From positions 1 to 43,031 of the forward strand of contig CAIVEI010000130.1 of the NCBI GenBank assembly GCA_903904835.1: 43,031 nt of DNA, given 5' to 3'. A program made the translations under genes and the position numbers. The notes under the pieces were generated by a model. That model was not told the DNA's origin. It saw only the letters and a program-made list of their open reading frames with translations, and did no database searches. The stretch is from an uncultured Schlesneria sp. (GTDB taxonomy: Bacteria; Planctomycetota; Planctomycetia; Planctomycetales; Planctomycetaceae). Every line of letters begins with the position of its first letter. The first letter of the stretch is position 1. Positions 18,886 to 27,736 of this stretch are shown here, piece after piece.

Positions 18886-19262
18886 CTGACATCTCCTCAG
18901 TCGCGGCGCTTTAGGGGCCAAGCTGCCGACGGTTCCACCGAATTCATCACTGTATCGTTTTTTTCGACGCCGCCGACCGACCGACTAAAGTGATCGTTTC
19001 AGTGTGAACAGGGGATCTTTCAAAGCGAAAATACAATCGCGCCAGGCGGCAAATTTTGACACTAAAACAAGCAAAAATCCTGTGATCTGAAGGGCAACGC
19101 CAAGATTTATTGTAGGAATCCACGATTTGGAGGCTTTTCGGCGATGTGCCGTCGTCGGTGTTCATATTGCCCGAAACTGAACTTCGTGATTAGAACGTGA
19201 CAATTGCGAGGCGACCTGCGTGTCAGGACGCTAGTTTCTGGCACTGTTCGAGGCTTGTGAAG
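18886..19262. other. Divergent promoter region between porin and K+ channel genes
   Basis: 377 bp without a gene I can support. The plus-strand channel frame is open back to a GTG at 19197, but the protein is convincing only from 19263. Both genes need promoters here; I could not place one with confidence. Confidence 0.45.
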
Positions 19263-20135
19263 ATGGATTCTGATTCCCAACATCCGTCGTCCGGCGGCGA
19301 TTCCGTGCTTCAGCCGTACGAACTATTCATGCTGCTGCTTTGTGGATACTCCCTGATCACGCTTGCGCTTGAAACTTTCATTCATGTGTCCGACGAAGAC
19401 AGTAAGATCATTGATGCTGTCGAGAACGTGGTGTGTGGAATCTTTTTTATCGATTTCCTGATCCGGCTTGTGAACGCTTCAAACAAACGCCAGTTCATGA
19501 CTTGGGGCTGGATCGATCTGCTGTCATGTATTCCGGTTTATGATGTGTTTCAAGCTGGTCGCGTGATTCGAGTCATTCGCGTTCTGCGGCTGTTGCGCGG
19601 TATTCGGGTTGCCAAGATCCTGTCGAAGTATTTGCAACACAATCGCGCCGACGGAACCATCCTGTTTGTAATCTTCGTCTCGATCCTGTTGCTGTTGATC
19701 TCAAGCGTGGCGATCCTTCAGGTTGAGAAAGACGTTGAAGGTGCCAATATCACCAGCGCTTCGGATGCTCTCTGGTGGTCAATCGTGACCATGACTACGG
19801 TTGGATATGGCGACAAGTTTCCCGTGACAACCGTCGGCCGGATTATCGCCGCCTTTTTAATGGTCGGGGGTGTAGGACTGTTCGGAATGCTCAGTGGTTC
19901 GGTGACGTCCTGGATTTTGAATCCCGTCGAAGAACGTCAGGAAATTGATCTTGAAGCGATTCAGAGAGAACTTGTGGCAATCCATAGCCGGTTGAATGAA
20001 GTCTCTTCACTGCATTCAACGGCATTGGACCCGCAACTTGCCAGGCTGATTGCTGTCTGGCCCGAGTTGTCAGAACCGATTCGCCGCGAAATTCAAAGAC
20101 TGGTCATTACCAATTCGCAGTGGATGGAAAAGTAA
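19263..20135 (+). CDS. Voltage-gated-type potassium channel subunit (6TM)
   Basis: 290-aa ion channel of the voltage-gated cation channel superfamily. Segments S1-S3 lie at about 17-95. The S4 segment 'RVIRVIRVLRLLRGIR' has Arg at every third position or so, which marks a voltage sensor. S5 follows, then a pore helix with selectivity filter TTVGYGD (about 178-184) and S6. A short helical C-terminal tail (about 230-290) may be a tetramerising coiled coil. ATG at 19263 is used because the 22 residues before it in the open frame have no membrane or domain character. There is no RCK/TrkA domain. K+ selectivity follows from TVGYG. Confidence 0.92.
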   Translation: MDSDSQHPSSGGDSVLQPYELFMLLLCGYSLITLALETFIHVSDEDSKIIDAVENVVCGIFFIDFLIRLVNASNKRQFMTWGWIDLLSCIPVYDVFQAGRVIRVIRVLRLLRGIRVAKILSKYLQHNRADGTILFVIFVSILLLLISSVAILQVEKDVEGANITSASDALWWSIVTMTTVGYGDKFPVTTVGRIIAAFLMVGGVGLFGMLSGSVTSWILNPVEERQEIDLEAIQRELVAIHSRLNEVSSLHSTALDPQLARLIAVWPELSEPIRREIQRLVITNSQWMEK

Positions 20136-20153
20136 CTATTACGATAATTATTA

Positions 20154-21179
20154 TCAGGTTGAATGATCGGTGGACGTGCTTGGCTGTGGAGTTGCGGAAT
20201 TCAGGTTGGGTTTGACTGACATTCCAACGTTAATGACGGGGTCCGGAGCATCCAGGCCGCCGAACGGGAACTCGATCCCAAAATTGCCTGGAGTTGCAAT
20301 CGAATTAAGTTCGTCAGGAAGCATTCGGACCTTGGATTTATTGCGTGCCGAGCGACTCGCCCAGACCGACATTCCAATCAAAAGAATCGCTCCTCCAATT
20401 GCTAGCGGGACGATCCATGGGTCAGACTTGGGCGGTTGGGGGGTAAGTGGGGTTGAAATCAACTTGGCGCGTCCGACGAGTAACGGTGCGGCGCGAGTGG
20501 CCATTAATGGCACGCCAGTCTTTTGGTCATAGCCATGGTAACTCATAAGCTTCAGGAAATATCCCACGAAGACGATTTCAGCTTGAATTTCCGGTCCGGT
20601 AGGCAAACCGACAGGGAGATCGGGAAACACGACACAGTAGAGTAAAGTCCGGGATTCACTGGTCCCACCCCAGGCTTCGTAAACCTTCTTGACCTCTGGC
20701 TGATCTTTCGGCGCCGGGTACTCCAAGACCCTCAGGGCATGCAATCGCAAGCGGATTGGCTTCCCGCGGTAGAGTTCGGGCTGTTCCCAGAGTTGGGTGA
20801 AGGCAATGTCTTTGATCGATCTTTTTTCCAACTCGGCAAACGAAAGAGTGCGGCTCCAATCCAACAGTCGCCAGTATGCATCCATCTCTCGCGATTTCAG
20901 CGGCGCTTTGTCGGTTACAAGCTCAAACAATTCCTGGACGGACGCGACTTCGTCCTCGTCCAGATCATTGGGGCCGGGGATAATAATATCTGGCTGTGAC
21001 GGTGTCTCGGAGGTTGCCTGAGTTGCGGCCGGTTCTTTATCATCTGCAAATGCGCGCCATGTGGAAGGATCATTCAGCCGGTTGTACAGCATCCAAAGCA
21101 CCAAGATTGCCATTAACATCGACACAAGTCGCATGCCAGAGACTGAACCTCCATAAGGTCGTGCAGAGTAACGGCGCAT
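20154..21179 (-). CDS. Two-TM membrane protein of the ExbB/ExbD operon, unknown function
   Basis: 341 aa, no named domain recognised. One membrane segment near the N-terminus (about 16-33) and another at about 256-275 enclose a periplasmic domain of about 220 residues. That domain has an acidic start ('PGPNDLDEDEVASVQELFELV') and a mixed alpha/beta core including 'QLWEQPELYRGKPIRLRLHALRVLEYP' and 'LYCVVFPDLPVGLPTGPEIQAEIVFVGYFLKLMSY'; the core may be an OB- or barrel-like fold. It is last in the minus-strand exbB-exbD-exbD operon (15 bp after the second exbD), so it probably works with the proton-channel complex. It converges with the K+ channel gene, 18 bp apart. Confidence 0.75.
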   Translation of the reverse strand: MRRYSARPYGGSVSGMRLVSMLMAILVLWMLYNRLNDPSTWRAFADDKEPAATQATSETPSQPDIIIPGPNDLDEDEVASVQELFELVTDKAPLKSREMDAYWRLLDWSRTLSFAELEKRSIKDIAFTQLWEQPELYRGKPIRLRLHALRVLEYPAPKDQPEVKKVYEAWGGTSESRTLLYCVVFPDLPVGLPTGPEIQAEIVFVGYFLKLMSYHGYDQKTGVPLMATRAAPLLVGRAKLISTPLTPQPPKSDPWIVPLAIGGAILLIGMSVWASRSARNKSKVRMLPDELNSIATPGNFGIEFPFGGLDAPDPVINVGMSVKPNLNSATPQPSTSTDHST

Positions 21180-21194
21180 GGTCTACCTCTTTTT

Positions 21195-21746
21195 TTATTT
21201 GGCGCTTGAGGTCGCTCCGACATCGACTTCGGAAAAACTGATCTTCTGCATGGCTGAACCGTCGGGCAGGCGCTGTCGATGGCAGACATCAATAATTTTC
21301 ATCAGTTCGCCATATCGTAACCGGCCGTCGACTGCGATTTGAATCCGGTCGAACGGGACCTGTTTTCCGGCAAACATCGTATGTAATTTTTGATCAAGAC
21401 GTTGAATGTTTCCTTCGTCAAGTCGCCCTTGAACGATCGGATTCATTTCCACTTTCAATTCGGAAACGTCCCCTCGATCGTTGGCCACAACATGCAGATG
21501 CAATGTTTCCTGCTGAAGGATCCCTTCGATTCCTTCGCCGCCTTTCGCGTTGGCGTCGACATTTGTTTGCGGTACGGGAGGTGGAAGATTCAGGGATAAT
21601 TGACCTTCGATCGGTGCGGGGCGGAAGGTCAGGATAAAAAACGTCAAAAGCTGAAATGCCATGTCGAGCATGGCTGCGAGATTCATTTCGACCGAACCTT
21701 GGTCTCGTTTTCGTCGACGTCGACGCTGGCTGCGACTGCGCTGCAT
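21195..21746 (-). CDS. ExbD/TolR-family proton-channel subunit (second copy)
   Basis: 183 aa. A very basic N-terminus (RSRSQRRRRRKR), then 'VEMNLAAMLDMAFQLLTFFILTF' with the single membrane helix and the conserved Asp (about D28) that carries protons in ExbD/TolR. A periplasmic domain follows with an insertion compared with the first copy. In known systems ExbD forms a dimer in an ExbB pentamer and powers TonB or TolA. Two different exbD genes in a row suggest a heterodimer. It starts 2 bp from the end of the first copy, so co-translation is likely. Confidence 0.9.
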   Translation of the reverse strand: MQRSRSQRRRRRKRDQGSVEMNLAAMLDMAFQLLTFFILTFRPAPIEGQLSLNLPPPVPQTNVDANAKGGEGIEGILQQETLHLHVVANDRGDVSELKVEMNPIVQGRLDEGNIQRLDQKLHTMFAGKQVPFDRIQIAVDGRLRYGELMKIIDVCHRQRLPDGSAMQKISFSEVDVGATSSAK

Positions 21747-21747
21747 C

Positions 21748-22203
21748 TTAGTGTTTCTCCTCGCGCGACATCGCGCTCAACGAGAAGTTTCGATAGCCCT
21801 GATCCTGACAGATTTTGAGAATATGGTTGACCAGATGAAACTGCGCTGATCGGTCTGCACGAATGATTACGGGAACGGGAAGTTCGCCGTTTTCGATTGG
21901 TGTCCCCAAAATCTTAAGCTGGTTCTTAAGGAAACGGGCCTCTTTCGTGATGAATTGTTCAACGTCAACTTGTTTCCCTTGGACCTTTACCTGTCCTGCG
22001 GAGTCAATATTGAGCAAAAGCGGTTCGAGATTCCCGTGGCGTTCCAGCGGACGAGCCGACCCAAGCACAGGCAGTTTCAAAGAAAGGTCGAGAGACGCCC
22101 CTTTGAAATTAATCACGAGCATGAAAAACGTGATCAATTGAAATACCATGTCGAGCAGGGGTGTAAGGTTCGGTTCCGCTCTTTCAGAATTATGTTCTGA
22201 CAT
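21748..22203 (-). CDS. ExbD/TolR-family proton-channel subunit (first copy)
   Basis: 151 aa. 'AEPNLTPLLDMVFQLITFFMLVINF' shows the ExbD/TolR signature: N-terminal cytoplasmic stub, conserved Asp (about D18) in one membrane helix, then a periplasmic domain with 'VPVIIRADRSAQFHLVNHILKICQDQGYRNFSLSA', the usual C-terminal ExbD/TolR pattern. It sits 20 bp after exbB and 1 bp before the second exbD. It differs clearly in sequence from the second copy, so this is not a recent duplication. Confidence 0.92.
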   Translation of the reverse strand: MSEHNSERAEPNLTPLLDMVFQLITFFMLVINFKGASLDLSLKLPVLGSARPLERHGNLEPLLLNIDSAGQVKVQGKQVDVEQFITKEARFLKNQLKILGTPIENGELPVPVIIRADRSAQFHLVNHILKICQDQGYRNFSLSAMSREEKH

Positions 22204-22223
22204 TCCATCCTCCTCGATTTGTT

Positions 22224-23042
22224 TCAGGGAGCGGCTTCAGTCGTTGGTTTCTTGTGGGCTGCGGCATGCAGGCGGCGAATGAACTCGTCGGCTGCATTCA
22301 ACGTTTGGACACTGAGGCTTGCTACGCGATTCTTGAAAAAGGCGAAGAAGTAGATGGCAGGTACCGACAATCCGACACCTTCAAACGTCAGAACCAAGGC
22401 CTCGGAAATACCATGGGCAACTTCGCTGGCCTTCATTTGCGTATCCGATCTCGCGATTACGCTGAAGCTTGCGATCATTCCCTTCAGCGTTCCCAACAGT
22501 CCAATCAGTGGTCCTAGCGTACCGATCACGGCGAGCATGCTGATCCGTTTTTCCATGTCCACTGTAATGACCTCACCCTGACGGTCAATCGCTTCACGTG
22601 CATCACTTAGGCCCGTGGACAACCCCACCATGCCTGTGGCAATCAATTGTCCAAGTTCACTGGTACTTTCTTTTGCAACTTTATAGATACCGTTAAAGTC
22701 ACGTTTGGCCAACAAGGCTTCACACTCTTCCATCAGTTCAGGCGGAGCGACGACCGGGGCGCGTAATTCGAGGAAACACTGCAGGACAATCGCCAAAAAA
22801 TAAATCGAAATCGCCAGGATCACCGCGCCAATCCAACCAGATGTATTAATCAGCCACATCAGCCGTGATTGACTAGGGGGGCTTTCAGCCGCTTTTGCTG
22901 GCTCTTCCGATGAAGCGGGTTTGGCTCCATCTTCCACCTGAGCATGAACCATGATCGGCCGTGAAAAAACTCCCATCGAGACGGTTAGCAGAACAATCAT
23001 CAGCCAAATGGGAACAATACGATGTTTCGTCGTAGAAAGCAT
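22224..23042 (-). CDS. ExbB/TolQ/MotA-family proton-channel protein
   Basis: 272 aa. The start at the complement of 23040-23042 has AGGAG 7 bp upstream. It gives an N-terminal signal-like hydrophobic segment (about 8-35) and a Pro/Glu/Ala-rich linker before the first true ExbB helix (about 68-90); extended N-termini of this kind are seen in many planctomycete ExbB proteins. The conserved region 'MLAVIGTLGPLIGLLGTLKGMIASF' and 'VAHGISEALVLTFEGVGLSVPAIYFFAFF' forms the two pore helices of the MotA/TolQ/ExbB family. It is first in the four-gene minus-strand operon and divergent from the VWA/MMPL pair. Confidence 0.92.
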   Translation of the reverse strand: MLSTTKHRIVPIWLMIVLLTVSMGVFSRPIMVHAQVEDGAKPASSEEPAKAAESPPSQSRLMWLINTSGWIGAVILAISIYFLAIVLQCFLELRAPVVAPPELMEECEALLAKRDFNGIYKVAKESTSELGQLIATGMVGLSTGLSDAREAIDRQGEVITVDMEKRISMLAVIGTLGPLIGLLGTLKGMIASFSVIARSDTQMKASEVAHGISEALVLTFEGVGLSVPAIYFFAFFKNRVASLSVQTLNAADEFIRRLHAAAHKKPTTEAAP

Positions 23043-23566
23043 GAAGCAGCTCCTGTTTTGGAATCGGAATCGGAATCGCCGACTCGGCGTGCGGCTATCG
23101 AGCAAAAGTCCATGAAGATCAGGTTGAATAGCCTAGTTATACTCGGTGTGATAGTGATTGCGACAGTTCTTGAAGTGACTTTTTATGGAAACGCAAATTC
23201 GGCTGAAAAGTTGGACAGGGAACATCCTCCATGGAGACTCGTCGACGGGCGTATTTCGCTTACATGACTTCATGCCAGATATTTGCGATGACGGAATCAT
23301 AGAATCGGGGCTTCCACGGATTCAAGTAATTAAGCGTCTCTGTGCGAGAAAATCCACATGTCTTTTCAGAAGATTTCAATTGACCAGCCTCAACTGACGG
23401 ACTCGATAGCCCGAAACAGAATCGCCTCTTGGGAGCAATTCAGGCGGTTTTGAGGTAGCCAGACACGTGGAAGATGTGGAAGATTACCCTAATTCCTAGT
23501 CGAATACACAATTGAAAGTGCCTGAAAAAAGCGAAACGGTCAGTATTTCCAAAGGATTTTCTTAAT
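23043..23566. other. Divergent regulatory region of the ExbBD and VWA/MMPL operons
   Basis: 524 bp between two divergent operons that I infer to work together. It contains one small candidate ORF (23112-23267, listed separately) and otherwise nothing I can name. Promoters for both directions should lie here; I see no strong -35/-10 pair. Confidence 0.45.
23112..23267 (+). CDS. Possible small membrane peptide (51 aa), weak support
   Basis: From ATG 23112 the frame reads a basic start MKIRLNS, a hydrophobic stretch 'LVILGVIVIATVLEVTFYG' and a short polar tail, i.e. a signal- or anchor-like peptide. There is no clear ribosome-binding site. It could be a real small membrane protein of the ExbBD/VWA locus or chance. 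Conservation in relatives would decide. Confidence 0.25.
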   Translation: MKIRLNSLVILGVIVIATVLEVTFYGNANSAEKLDREHPPWRLVDGRISLT

Positions 23567-24742
23567 ATGATCACCACAGCCAGAAAGGTTCGCACGAGAA
23601 CGCGGCGAAAAACGTATTCGTTGCTGATGGTGTCTTTGTTGCTTCACGTATTCGTTCTGCTTGTGATGCTGCAGTTTTCGGGGTTCCGTTCAGCGAGTCG
23701 AGGAACCGGCGACGCGGGGGAAGGCGATAACTGGTCGGCCACATGGATTCCAGGGAGCCCAGGTGGGATGGGCGAATCCGGGGGCAGCGGGGCGGTGATC
23801 GATACTGTTATTCCCGATGCTGAATCCGATGGTTCGAATGAGGTTCATCAAACGATCGAAATGCAACCAGCAATTGAAAAACCGCGTTTGCTGACCGTTG
23901 TTGAGACGGATCCGCAAACTGTATTCAGTGCAATCAAAGAGAATTCGAATGCCATTGAGGAAGAACTGCATGTCTCGTTGAAAACTGCAGAGCGCAATAA
24001 ACTATTCGATGTTCAGTCAGCTCGTTTTAATCAGCCTGACCTGCAGGATTCAGCAGTAAAAGACCGGGATCTGGCGGCATTTGAGGGCGCATCAACACGT
24101 GATCAAACCGAGGATGGCTTCCCTTCGAACCGGGGTATTACCGACGGTCAAGGTGTTGGAGGAGAGCCTGGAAAGGGAGGAGCGTCCGGATCTGGGGGGC
24201 ATCAAACAAGCTTCTTTGGCATTAAGGCCCCGGCCAAAAGAATCGTCTATGTGATTGATGCGTCGGAGAGTATGCGTCAGCACGATGCCATGCAATTCGC
24301 CCGACAGAAACTTTGGGACAGTCTGCAAGAACTGACGCCGACATCGCAGTTTCAGGTGATTTTCTTTAACGTGACGAACCACACTATGAATCGTCCGGGT
24401 GAACGAACTCGATTATTGCCAGCGACGTCGATCAACCTACGACTGGCCAGGCAGTTCCTGACTGGAATACAGCCAGATTCGGGCACAAACCGAATGGGAG
24501 CATTGTCCCTGGCGCTCAGTTTTGATCCCGATGTAATCTATTTGTTAACGGATGCTGACGCACCCGAATTGAGCGCCAGGGACCTTTGGGATCTTAAACG
24601 AGGCAACAAGCGGAAAGCCTTGGTACATGTTGTCGAATTCGGGGTTGGAGCAGATTTGAGCCCGGAAAACTTCCTCAAAAAGCTGGCCCGTCAAAACGCT
24701 GGAATCCATCGATATCATGATTTGACGCAGGCGCAACGATGA
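23567..24742 (+). CDS. VWA-domain protein with TonB/TolA-like N-terminal anchor
   Basis: 391 aa. A basic cytoplasmic tail (RTRTRRK) is followed by one membrane helix 'SLLMVSLLLHVFVLLVML' (about 18-35) that contains S23-x3-H27, the spacing used by TonB (S16/H20) and TolA (S18/H22) to contact ExbB/ExbD or TolQ/TolR. A Gly-rich stretch then leads to 'GAVIDTVIPD', reminiscent of TolA after its anchor. A polar linker (about 85-220) precedes a VWA domain with intact MIDAS start D231-A-S233-E-S235 and 'IYLLTDADAPE' (about 325-335). VWA domains bind proteins through a metal ion. It is divergent from exbB and upstream of the MMPL exporter (63 bp). I infer an ExbBD-driven periplasmic VWA protein. Confidence 0.85.
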   Translation: MITTARKVRTRTRRKTYSLLMVSLLLHVFVLLVMLQFSGFRSASRGTGDAGEGDNWSATWIPGSPGGMGESGGSGAVIDTVIPDAESDGSNEVHQTIEMQPAIEKPRLLTVVETDPQTVFSAIKENSNAIEEELHVSLKTAERNKLFDVQSARFNQPDLQDSAVKDRDLAAFEGASTRDQTEDGFPSNRGITDGQGVGGEPGKGGASGSGGHQTSFFGIKAPAKRIVYVIDASESMRQHDAMQFARQKLWDSLQELTPTSQFQVIFFNVTNHTMNRPGERTRLLPATSINLRLARQFLTGIQPDSGTNRMGALSLALSFDPDVIYLLTDADAPELSARDLWDLKRGNKRKALVHVVEFGVGADLSPENFLKKLARQNAGIHRYHDLTQAQR

Positions 24743-24766
24743 TTCGGCAGTTGCACAGATGCCAAC

Positions 24767-24780
24767 TCTCGAACTCGAGA
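24767..24780. repeat. Short inverted repeat between the VWA and MMPL genes
   Basis: TCTCGA-AC-TCGAGA, perfect 6-bp arms, 25 bp before the MMPL start codon. Too small to be a terminator; it might affect translation or bind a regulator. Low certainty. Confidence 0.25.
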
Positions 24781-24805
24781 ACAATCCAGATCTTCAGGAC
24801 TTTTC

Positions 24806-27736
24806 ATGTCTGACGACGTTTCAAATCATGCGCCAGGCGCACTCGTTACTCGATTGTTGAAGGCGATTACTTCGGTGGTGACCCTCGCTCCCGGTTTGAC
24901 GCTGTGTCTCGTCCTTTTGCTAGCCGCTGCTTCGGCAGGCTATTCCTCGCTCTGCCTGAAATTCAAGACAGACCGGTCCGATCTGATCGATCCTCAGGCT
25001 GATTATCAGCGGCGGTGGAATAAGTATACGAAAGACTTTGGCGATTCATCTGACATTGTTGTGGTCGTCGAATCTGGTGAGCCCGATGAAATCGATGCGA
25101 TTCTGGACGAACTCGGAACCCAGATTGAAAGCGAACCCGAATTCTTTCGCGACGTTCTTTATAAGGTTGACCAACGCGGTTTGGCATCAAAGGGATTGCA
25201 ATATCTATCTCCCAAAGAGTTGGACGGACTGATTAATTGGCTGGAAGGCTTCAGCATGATCCTGAAGGGCCGCTGGCAGATGTATAGCCTGAATCAGGTC
25301 TTTACGAATCTGAAGCCGCAAGTCGCGCGCGCGATCGAATCGGGAGATATTCAGGCAACAGTGGACGTATTGCGCGTAGGGGAAGGCTTTGTGCAAAGCC
25401 TTGCCCAATTCATCAACAAGCCCGATCAGTTTATTTCGCCCTGGCAGTCGACCATGCCCATGGATCAGCAATCGGTGGGAAAAGCTGCGGAGGTGCGCTA
25501 TCTGACCAATGAAAAACGAACGATGGGCTTTCTGAAGGCTCAGCCAGTTCAAAAGGCGACGGGATTTGACGGCACGGATAAGTCGGTCGATCGGATGGAG
25601 GTGATCCTGGCGGAAAAGACTCGCAAGCATCCTCATGCCAAACTCGGGATCACAGGTATTCCGTCACTTGAACGGGACGAAATGCGTTCTTCTCAGGAGT
25701 CAATGATCTGGCAGTCGATCATTTCATTTGGTGGCGTCGGGGTTTTACTCGTGGCTGGATTTCGAGGCGTGAAACACCCGTTGCTCGGGCAGTTAATGCT
25801 CGTTGTTGGAACCGCATTGGGATTTGGATTTGCCACAGCGACGATTGGCCACCTGAATATCCTTTCAGTTTCATTCGTGACAATGCTAGTCGGATTGGGA
25901 AGTGATTATGCAATCTTGTATTTGTCCCAATACCTTCAATTTCGTCACGAAGGTCAGGATCTGCGCCCTGCATTGATTGCTACCGCACAGGACGTGGGGC
26001 CAGGGATTCTGACCGCAGCAGCCACGACATCATTGGCATTCTTTTGCGCGGTCTTTACTGATTTTCTCGGTGTTGCCGAGCTAGGTGTGATTGCCGGAGG
26101 TGGAATTCTGCTTTGTGCCCTGGCTGCATTTTTTGTGATGCCATCGAGCATCTCGCTGGTCGATCGCAAAACTGATCCGAACCGTCTTCCAGCTCAGATG
26201 AAGCTGAACGTCATCAGCCATGTCACCTCGCGCTGGCCGCTGGTTGTCACAGTAATGTCAATGCTTTTGATCGCTGCCATCTCATCATACGGCTTTCGGG
26301 TCAAGTACGACTACAACCTGCTTCACCTTCAAGCGGACGGAATTCCGTCTGTGGAACTGCAGAAAAGACTTGTACAAGAGCCGAACAGCCGGACGTTGTT
26401 TGCCGTAACGACTGCCAGCAGTCCCACAGAGGCACTCGATCTGAAGAAGCGGTTTGAAGCTCTACCGGAAGTTCATCACGTGGAAGAGATCGCTTCGGTG
26501 CTTCCCCAGCAACCATCTGAAAAAGCATTATTGATTCAAGGAATTCACGCTCTTTTGTCCGATTTGCCAGCAGAATGGCCGGAAGCAGGCATGGTCGACC
26601 CCGTATTGATTCGCGAACGGCTGGAACGTTTTGCTGAATCGCTGGATGATGCCCAATCAACGTCAATCGTTGGTATTCAGAAGCAGATTGCCCAAATCCT
26701 CGTATCGCTGGAGCAACAGTCTCTGGAGCAACAGACCGCAATTTTGACTGCCTATCAATTGCAGATGAAGGCCGACCTGCTTTCGCGATTCCGGGGCCTG
26801 GAAGCGGTTTCAAACCCCGAGCCAGTGACTCTTGCCGACCTGCCATCAGCCGTGGTTTCTCGATTCGCGCGCCCCGGTCGATGGTCGCTACAGATTCATC
26901 CTCGACACGAGATCTGGGATATCGAACCGCTCGAAAAGTTTGTCAATGCGGTCCGCAAAGTTGATCCTGAGGTGACTGGAGTACCGCTTCAGAACTATGA
27001 GGCATCACAACAAATCTGGGAGAGTTATAAGCGGGTTGCCGTGTATGCGCTGCTGGCAATCTATCTTGTGCTGGTGCTCGACTTCCTCAATTTGCGTAAC
27101 ACATTGATTGCCGTGCTAGGACCCATTGCAGGCGTCGTGGTGACGGCATACGTCGCGAAGTCGATGGGAACTAGGATCGGCTATGAACAGATTGGACTTG
27201 CTTATGTCATCACAACGATCGTGCTTGTGGCCATCGTCGACTTTGAAGGATTGAGGAACATCGGTTTGGCTCTGTTGCCACCACTCGCAGGGGCCGCGCT
27301 GATGCTCGGCGTGATGGGGCTTTTGAAGGTCGATCTCAATCCGGCGAACCTGATCATCCTGCCGTTAATTCTCGGGATTGGCGTTGATAATGGAGTCCAT
27401 GTGATGCACGATTATCGCAGACAATCAGGCCGCCGTTACGTGTCGTCACCCAGCATGATTAACTCGCTGATTCTGACCTCGCTGACCAACATGGTTGGAT
27501 TCGGCAGCATGATCATTGCACCACACCGGGGTCTGAAGAGCATCGGCGTCGTGTCTTCGGTCGGTGTCGGAAGTTGCCTGCTAATTTCGGTGGTCGTATT
27601 GCCAGCGATCATGACCCTGATTTCACTGAAACGTCATGGCATTAAATATTCGCCGTTGCCAGGGGCAGTCGATCGCTTTGGACATACTCCACAGAACACC
27701 AGTTTGGAAGAGAGTCTGACGCGTGATGGGTCGTAA
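24806..27736 (+). CDS. MMPL/HpnN-like RND-superfamily exporter
   Basis: 976-aa inner-membrane transporter with the two-fold RND layout: TM1 (about 27-47), a large periplasmic loop, TM2-6 (about 295-450), TM7 (about 472-492), a second loop, and TM8-12 (about 745-945). Each half has the MMPL-type proton-relay Asp: D367 in GLGSDYAILYL and D861 in GIGVDNGVHVM. MMPL/HpnN proteins move lipids such as hopanoids or mycolates to the outer leaflet or outer membrane. No squalene-hopene or hpn gene is nearby, so a hopanoid substrate is not shown. It is downstream of the VWA gene with a 63-bp gap, likely one transcript. No adaptor or outer-membrane channel accompanies it. Confidence 0.88.
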   Translation: MSDDVSNHAPGALVTRLLKAITSVVTLAPGLTLCLVLLLAAASAGYSSLCLKFKTDRSDLIDPQADYQRRWNKYTKDFGDSSDIVVVVESGEPDEIDAILDELGTQIESEPEFFRDVLYKVDQRGLASKGLQYLSPKELDGLINWLEGFSMILKGRWQMYSLNQVFTNLKPQVARAIESGDIQATVDVLRVGEGFVQSLAQFINKPDQFISPWQSTMPMDQQSVGKAAEVRYLTNEKRTMGFLKAQPVQKATGFDGTDKSVDRMEVILAEKTRKHPHAKLGITGIPSLERDEMRSSQESMIWQSIISFGGVGVLLVAGFRGVKHPLLGQLMLVVGTALGFGFATATIGHLNILSVSFVTMLVGLGSDYAILYLSQYLQFRHEGQDLRPALIATAQDVGPGILTAAATTSLAFFCAVFTDFLGVAELGVIAGGGILLCALAAFFVMPSSISLVDRKTDPNRLPAQMKLNVISHVTSRWPLVVTVMSMLLIAAISSYGFRVKYDYNLLHLQADGIPSVELQKRLVQEPNSRTLFAVTTASSPTEALDLKKRFEALPEVHHVEEIASVLPQQPSEKALLIQGIHALLSDLPAEWPEAGMVDPVLIRERLERFAESLDDAQSTSIVGIQKQIAQILVSLEQQSLEQQTAILTAYQLQMKADLLSRFRGLEAVSNPEPVTLADLPSAVVSRFARPGRWSLQIHPRHEIWDIEPLEKFVNAVRKVDPEVTGVPLQNYEASQQIWESYKRVAVYALLAIYLVLVLDFLNLRNTLIAVLGPIAGVVVTAYVAKSMGTRIGYEQIGLAYVITTIVLVAIVDFEGLRNIGLALLPPLAGAALMLGVMGLLKVDLNPANLIILPLILGIGVDNGVHVMHDYRRQSGRRYVSSPSMINSLILTSLTNMVGFGSMIIAPHRGLKSIGVVSSVGVGSCLLISVVVLPAIMTLISLKRHGIKYSPLPGAVDRFGHTPQNTSLEESLTRDGS

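Follow-up and report, generated by a model that had tools for sequence, protein, structure and literature searches.

What do ExbB/ExbD motors drive in a genus in which TonB_C has not been found? The source genome of the DNA analyzed here (43,031 nucleotides from an uncultured Schlesneria sp., hereafter the window) contains seven ExbB-family and nine ExbD-family matches. A search restricted to TonB_C (PF03544) gave no match in any of 13 genus genomes, a receptor plug match was obtained in one of the 13, and TonB_C was likewise absent from the Pfam scan of the window proteins.

Motor operon and neighboring genes

The initial annotation had described an exbB-exbD-exbD operon divergent from a VWA gene, which is followed by an MMPL/HpnN-like gene. 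The gene positions and Pfam matches bear out this arrangement, and all of the genes it named were confirmed in the window. The minus-strand operon runs in the order exbB-exbD-exbD-fourth gene and encodes an ExbB/TolQ-like motor subunit (22224..23042; Pfam MotA_ExbB, 4.8e-23) and two ExbD/TolR-like subunits (21748..22203, Pfam ExbD, 6.3e-20; 21195..21746, Pfam ExbD, 2.7e-12), each with a membrane Asp. The likely ATG start of exbB at 23042 lies 524 bases from the start of the VWA gene (23567..24742, plus strand; 391 aa; Pfam VWA_3, 1.4e-8). The HpnN-like MMPL transporter (976 aa; 24806..27736, plus strand; Pfam MMPL, 5.4e-22) is encoded 63 bases 3' of the VWA gene. Promoter and terminator scans gave no excess over shuffles, and a PHROGs comparison gave no match.

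T185, T219, and P228 of the window ExbB align with ExbB T148, T181, and P190, and S79 aligns with TolQ S28. Equivalents of Thr148/Thr181/Pro190 were present in 43/43 module-type ExbB and in 23/23 other planctomycete ExbB, and the helix Asp was retained in 44/44 members of each of the two ExbD families. The Trp contacting TonB/TolA (ExbB W38, TolQ W32) was not conserved in the planctomycete ExbB alignment; because the aligner gapped E. coli ExbB at this site, the TolQ row was relied on.

The fourth operon gene (20154..21179, minus strand), which the initial annotation did not mention, encodes a conserved protein of 341 aa and comes after the second exbD in most of the module loci shown. Its AlphaFold2 model comprises a helix at residues 14-34, a helical and then beta-rich middle, and a helix at 255-278, with core pLDDT mostly above 90. 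No Pfam family scored above the cut-off. An OB fold was considered and rejected, as the Foldseek matches, many of them to OB-fold proteins, were weak. The protein may be a motor accessory.

Anchor, linker, and head of the VWA protein

As the initial annotation had proposed, the VWA protein begins with a basic tail and a membrane helix, which the AlphaFold2 model places at residues 13-37 (23603..23677, plus strand) and which contains S23 and H27 but no Asp. By sequence comparison, the S23-x3-H27 spacing is that of E. coli TonB S16/H20 and TolA S18/H22, the roles of which are treated in the available text of PMC12215075. The relatives of the VWA protein were aligned (63 rows), and six rows were set aside for the helix analysis because the helix was missing; five of these look truncated or mis-started, and in P0055 the helix seemingly lies further in. 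Among the rows having a residue at the position, S23 was present in 57/58 and H27 in 55/59, and these were the lowest-entropy positions of the helix (0.13 and 0.43 bits; next, 1.29). N or D replaced the His in four relatives (P0038, P0043, P0044, and P0065). As a background rate, S-x3-H occurred in 3/148 N-anchored non-VWA, non-Exb proteins away from ExbB in the loci examined; one of these three is of the toroid type and adjoins an ExbD.

The full SHLS motif was rejected for the VWA family, since its Leu and second Ser vary. The Leu site (position 34) is L in 24/62 rows and M in the window protein, and the second Ser site (position 38) is S in the window protein and poorly kept among the relatives. 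According to the available text of PMC12215075, these two residues are less conserved in Ton proteins too.

Most of residues 44-209 had pLDDT below 50, indicating a long disordered linker. Within it, the stretch WSATWIPG (residues 56-63; 23732..23755, plus strand) showed a mean column entropy of 1.47 bits, versus 2.72 for the remaining linker. Judged by sequence, this putative motor box, which follows the helix, is similar to the D-box of TonB, as presented in the available text of PMC10907165.

The C-terminal VWA domain (approximately residues 213-385; 24203..24721, plus strand) was modeled with pLDDT mostly above 90, and the Foldseek matches of the model include VWA folds, BatB among them. 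The MIDAS start that had been read as intact (D231, S233, and S235) is invariant in the 63 aligned relatives. Equally invariant are T307 and D329, which we take to be the remaining MIDAS residues.

Linkage of VWA genes to motor genes

In the fetched loci, genes were called mechanically as the longest non-overlapping ORFs and helices were taken from a hydropathy threshold. Exb, VWA, and toroid labels were assigned by purpose-built profiles, and ten of the Exb proteins from beyond the window were checked with Pfam. Across 29 VWA genes sampled from the phylum, ExbB was encoded within 2 kb of 11/13 with S-x3-H and 0/16 without it (Fisher 2e-6), leaving two S-x3-H genes unlinked at that distance. 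Counted by genus, the linkage was 8/10 versus 0/15 (4e-5). These counts come from wider flanks; with 1.5-kb flanks they were 8/13 versus 0/16, six of those 16 being cut before the N-terminus.

The exbB-exbD-exbD module adjoins the VWA gene in the window and in loci L050-L053 and L056, and a VWA gene also adjoins ExbB in L096 and L105. Among 39 further VWA loci, 19 were linked to another ExbB subfamily in another gene order and 20 had no ExbB/ExbD within the fetched DNA, some contigs being short; the same holds for L057-L064, with none in 8/8 and some contigs short. The initial annotation had named VWA homologues without ExbB/ExbD, combined with loss of S-x3-H, as jointly telling against its reading: the former was found in these 20 loci, and the latter was not, the motif being kept in 38/39. 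Two loci went unflagged in the S-x3-H scan; L059 does show the motif, and the frame of L062 is doubtful.

Because S/H is conserved, a D-box-like stretch is present, ExbB/ExbD linkage recurs in several gene orders, and no TonB_C was found in the genus, we consider it likely that the VWA protein acts, like TonB/TolA, as a proton-driven arm, here with VWA as its head, powered by the adjoining ExbB/ExbD motor, which agrees with the coupling first proposed for it. The motor would consist of ExbB-like and ExbD-like subunits, five to two by analogy, with perhaps one of each ExbD. Through Ser23/His27, the membrane helix of the VWA protein would dock laterally on the ExbB ring, and the D-box-like strand, which follows immediately beyond the membrane, would be held by the periplasmic domains of ExbD. 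Proton flow would move the motor, and the disordered linker of approximately 150 residues would transmit the pulling force to the VWA head. The metal site of the head may hold a ligand, which would lie in the periplasm, the cell wall, or the outer membrane. The protein may bridge to the outer membrane, as the initial annotation had suggested.

Known transducers and alternative clients

A class of vWA force transducers was independently predicted by Williams-Jones et al. 2025, with AF3 complexes, with docking at the edge of the motor as a predicted feature, and with Planctomycetes named (PMC12204202, available text), so this locus adds a member rather than a new kind. As far as that text describes the class, the window protein shares its single N-terminal helix carrying the S-x3-H core of SHLS, its disordered linker with a putative motor box (here the conserved residues 56-63), its C-terminal vWA fold, and its linked tolQ-like and two tolR-like genes. 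The window differs in the divergent transcription of the VWA gene, the extra conserved fourth operon protein, and the unconserved Leu and second Ser of SHLS. A TPR gene is frequent in the published clusters and not defining, according to the same text. No TPR protein was found among the ten window proteins scanned with Pfam, and a cluster in the source genome (C102) has the order TPR-ExbB-ExbD-ExbD and no adjoining VWA gene. The second family in that text, TPH-vWA, likewise has a vWA protein that is anchored in the membrane and whose gene is linked to a TolQ-like one; it is described there as having no S/H, an Asp in the pore helix, and no ExbD partner, whereas the window has S/H, no helix Asp, and two ExbD genes. 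With E. coli TonB/TolA, the window shares the S-x3-H anchor, the D-box-like strand after the helix, and the adjoining ExbB/TolQ-like and ExbD/TolR-like genes, but the VWA head stands in place of the TonB/TolA C-terminal domain, and the genus genomes gave no matches to TonB_C and hardly any to the receptor plug.

S-x3-H also occurs in proteins with a squalene-cyclase-like toroid replacing the VWA domain, on which our literature searches found no paper. Among those of approximately 750 aa, 19 of the 20 cases sampled are encoded immediately next to ExbD. Toroid or small beta-type S-x3-H neighbors were observed at module loci L071, L097, L099, L100, L104, and L107. Non-VWA anchored proteins carried S-x3-H in 7/61 cases near module-type ExbB versus 1/89 elsewhere (Fisher 0.008); a second count, which took in every ExbB type and additional loci, disagrees (8/131 versus 3/148, p 0.12). 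The module may serve several S-x3-H proteins, also in trans, with the VWA protein as one optional client. The neighbors at these six module loci, together with G118 and G125, in which the module is present and no full-length VWA orthologue was found (the G118 match is cut by the contig end), fit this reading, but we think it unlikely here, given that in the window and L050-L053 no S-x3-H gene other than the VWA gene was found next to the module.

Less probable still is that the VWA protein is an undriven, membrane-anchored scaffold or adhesin resembling BatA/BatB, in which S-x3-H would serve helix packing and the linkage would reflect co-regulation. The BatB match is consistent with such a role, as are the many S-x3-H VWA genes without ExbB/ExbD in the fetched DNA and the G130 genome (one contig), which retains the VWA protein with S/H beside an ion-channel gene and lacks the module, its best ExbB being only 37% identical. 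Further points against a driven arm are the distance of approximately 440 kb between VWA and ExbB in G075, the two unlinked S-x3-H genes of the phylum sample, the N or D in place of His in four relatives, and the unconserved motor Trp and SHLS residues. The helix His, however, is kept across very divergent proteins, and the different gene orders of the linkage, its confinement to S-x3-H genes in the phylum sample, and the D-box-like strand argue for a driven arm.

That the VWA protein lets the motor power or clear the HpnN-like lipid exporter, as the initial annotation had suggested, is very improbable: the two genes are co-directional and adjacent, but only in the window and three close genomes (L050, L051, and L052; 4/13 genus genomes). 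The three copies are 88-91% identical to the window copy, and the other nine genomes have a homologue 43-46% identical. The VWA-adjacent copy is the sole HpnN match above 31% identity in the four genomes, which would fit a moved housekeeping gene. No HpnN lies within approximately 9 kb on either side of the VWA orthologues in G135, G130, and G075, the homologue being located on a separate contig in G135 and G075 and approximately 440 kb away in G130; none was seen in G103, whose contig stops 740 bases past VWA. Against NCBIfam HpnN (TIGR03480), the MMPL protein scored 503.8 bits (8.4e-151), below the 751.85 cut-off, and is HpnN-like only. It is probably an incidental neighbor outside the machine.

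The driven VWA arm favored here may belong to a wider set. It is an evenly balanced proposition that, in TonB-less planctomycetes, ExbB/ExbD motors work with swappable arms sharing an S-x3-H anchor, whose heads would be a VWA domain, as in the window, a squalene-cyclase/prenyltransferase-like alpha-alpha toroid in which the DxDD motif of the cyclases is missing, or a small beta domain, and that the toroid arms form a new class of proton-driven transducer. For a genus with many ExbB/ExbD genes and no TonB_C found, this locus and its relatives give a testable answer, down to the residues, to what the motors drive. Should the toroid class prove to be driven as well, force transduction across bacterial envelopes would extend beyond TonB, TolA, and the vWA arms already published.

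Architecture and conservation of the VWA protein and its locus

The VWA protein (window 23567-24742, plus strand, 391 aa) comprises a basic tail and a helix carrying S23 and H27 in a Ser-x3-His (S-x3-H) arrangement, followed by a disordered region and then the VWA domain. A database VWA protein with 89% identity to it carries the name Schlesneria sp., and the window is probably from that planctomycete genus. The Foldseek matches include the VWA domains of inter-alpha-inhibitor, CLCA1, and the calcium-channel alpha2delta. D231, S233, S235, T307, and D329 are invariant across 63 aligned relatives, the first three being the MIDAS start described as intact in the initial annotation. Among the alignment rows with a residue at the position, S23 is conserved in 57/58 and H27 in 55/59; no other helix position is conserved as strongly. 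S-x3-H is present in 53 of the 57 rows having a hydropathy-defined helix, six others having been set aside for want of one; the four misses (P0038, P0043, P0044, P0065) retain the helix, with N or D at the position of the motor-contact His. The motif also occurs in 38 of 39 additional VWA loci, which come from 39 genomes in 31 genera and form part of one genome-search match list; the sole miss is cut by a contig end. The background rate was 3/148 among N-anchored non-VWA, non-Exb proteins away from ExbB, and one of these three is a toroid (squalene-cyclase/prenyltransferase-like) protein beside ExbD. The Leu and Ser of the longer published form, SHLS (+7 and +11 after His), are not conserved in the alignment.

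According to PMC10907165, TonB binds ExbD via the D-box, a strand close to the outer face of the membrane in which hydrophobic and hydrophilic residues alternate. A D-box-like stretch, WSATWIPG (often FSVTWIPG in relatives), lies at VWA residues 56-63. Its mean column entropy is 1.47 bits, as compared with 2.72 across the remaining linker and 1.40 in the VWA domain, with ~52/63 rows having residues in these columns and most distant paralogues unaligned there. Judged by sequence, this stretch may represent a second hallmark of a TonB-type arm, after S/H.

The gene order described in the initial annotation was borne out. A tight minus-strand operon encodes ExbB (22224-23042), ExbD1 (21748-22203), ExbD2 (21195-21746), and a 341-aa hypothetical protein (20154-21179), hereafter the module; 524 bases separate the likely exbB start from the divergent VWA gene, which is followed by the HpnN-like transporter gene (24806-27736, plus strand). 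The fourth protein has no Pfam family and a weak OB-like resemblance, and is the module's fourth gene in most module loci shown; it is doubled in loci L072 and L090, with an extra copy upstream, on the opposite strand, in L056, L076, and L079. Three consecutive ExbD genes occur in L072 and L078. An Ion_trans channel gene (19197-20135) adjoins the module; among genus members it accompanies the module in L053 and L070, and VWA without the module in L054. In one locus (L051:4590-5222), an additional, divergent pair of ExbB and ExbD genes lies between the IscA-like gene and HpnN; this pair was not seen in the window, L050, or L052.

Motor subunits and linkage to VWA genes

ExbB T185, T219, and P228 match E. 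coli ExbB T148, T181, and P190, and the 43 module-type ExbB proteins and 23 others from planctomycetes all keep the equivalent residues. S79 aligns with TolQ S28 and is kept in 42/43 and 22/23, respectively; the contacting Trp of the motor does not align. PMC12215075 describes the S/H contact network. The helix Asp is retained in 44/44 of each ExbD family.

TonB_C (PF03544) was detected in 0/13 genus genomes by a search that detected the positive controls E. coli, Caulobacter, and Bacteroides; a receptor plug was found in 1/13. The window's own genome has 7 ExbB-family and 9 ExbD-family matches. Its contig C102 (L065) carries a TPR-TPR-ExbB-ExbD-ExbD cluster resembling the published PVC order, with no VWA gene beside it.

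A full-length VWA orthologue was found in 7/12 genus genomes (G000, G096, G109, G140, G135, G130, G075), and the module lies beside it in 5/7. In G130, VWA adjoins the ion-channel gene and the best ExbB is 37% identical; in G075, ~440 kb separate VWA and ExbB. G118 and G125 have the module, and a full-length orthologue was not found there. In G103, from another genus, the module is upstream of VWA on the same strand.

ExbB/ExbD genes lie 541-1781 bases from VWA in 19/39 further VWA loci, most often arranged as VWA, ~360-aa gene, ExbB, ExbD, with ExbB of another subfamily; none was found in the fetched DNA of the other 20/39, or of L057-L064 (0/8). In a phylum sample of the best 29 new VWA loci from a search of 99 genomes, with flanks of ~5-6 kb where the contig permitted, ExbB was within 2 kb of 11/13 VWA genes with S-x3-H (four of the 13 from the window's own family) and 0/16 without (Fisher 2e-6). 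Counted by genus, the values were 8/10 and 0/15 (Fisher 4e-5). With 1.5-kb flanks the gene counts were 8/13 and 0/16, six of the 16 being cut before the N-terminus. ExbB is followed by ExbD in all 11 linked loci; the two unlinked S-x3-H loci are L223 and L240 (contig 5.5 kb). Most of the 16 genes without the motif start with a signal-like helix.

Toroid proteins with an S-x3-H helix

Among module loci chosen by ExbB similarity (40 fetched, some lower matches skipped; 38 counted, L108 and L109 having another ExbB type), an S-x3-H protein is encoded within six genes in 8/38: two VWA (L096, L105; VWA content already seen in the earlier genome search), five toroid (L097, L099, L100, L104, L107), and one small beta-type protein. 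The last (L071:5862-6863, 333 aa), downstream of the module, has a C-terminus that appears beta-rich by eye and no Pfam match, and its host is a genus member in which no full-length VWA orthologue was found.

Toroid proteins match SQHop_cyclase, some above and some below the Pfam cut-off. By one criterion, 43/47 have the S-x3-H helix, and DxDD occurs in 0/47. In loci picked as ~750-aa toroids, the motif is present in 20/20, with ExbD within 61 bases in 19/20; the long toroids (1077-1286 aa) adjoin ExbD and ExbB in 3/3, with the motif in 2/3 by the same criterion; and the 488-648-aa loci have the motif in 13/17, their retrieved DNA showing no Exb genes. Pfam assigned all ten neighbours that were tested to ExbD or ExbB, and seven of these lie next to toroid genes. 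Besides the five module loci above, the S-x3-H toroid loci comprise L152-L171, L189-L191, and L068:6619-8847, and the window's own genome carries one such protein (contig C180). Toroid S-x3-H proteins are a candidate second class of motor-driven arm. No paper pairing ExbD/TolQ with squalene or prenyltransferase was found in the largely open-access journal literature searched.

The HpnN neighbour and the vWA class

The initial annotation suggested that the VWA protein might act at the HpnN-like exporter, a role that the distribution does not support. HpnN was seen beside VWA only in G000, G096, G109, and G140 (4/13 genus genomes), with copies 88-91% identical to the window's; the remaining 9/13 have a homologue 43-46% identical, and in G135, G130, and G075, where the VWA orthologue is known, the two are apart. 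The adjacency appears to have arisen once, within a single clade.

The accessible text of PMC12204202 (Williams-Jones et al. 2025) describes vWA proteins from Planctomycetes and other groups that have TolA/TonB topology, an SHLS helix, and a predicted motor box; they are accompanied by tolQ-like and paired tolR-like genes, and AF3 predicts that they dock via the His. Beyond that text, our analysis adds counts of how often the motif is conserved and the genes are linked, the control that sets VWA genes with the motif against those lacking it, a sequence-based comparison with the D-box, the tally of TonB_C across the genus, and the module of four genes. We infer the docking of the VWA arm on the motor, the stoichiometry, and the force. 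The arm is probably motor-driven, and the locus fits the vWA class as that text describes it, of which it is a new member.
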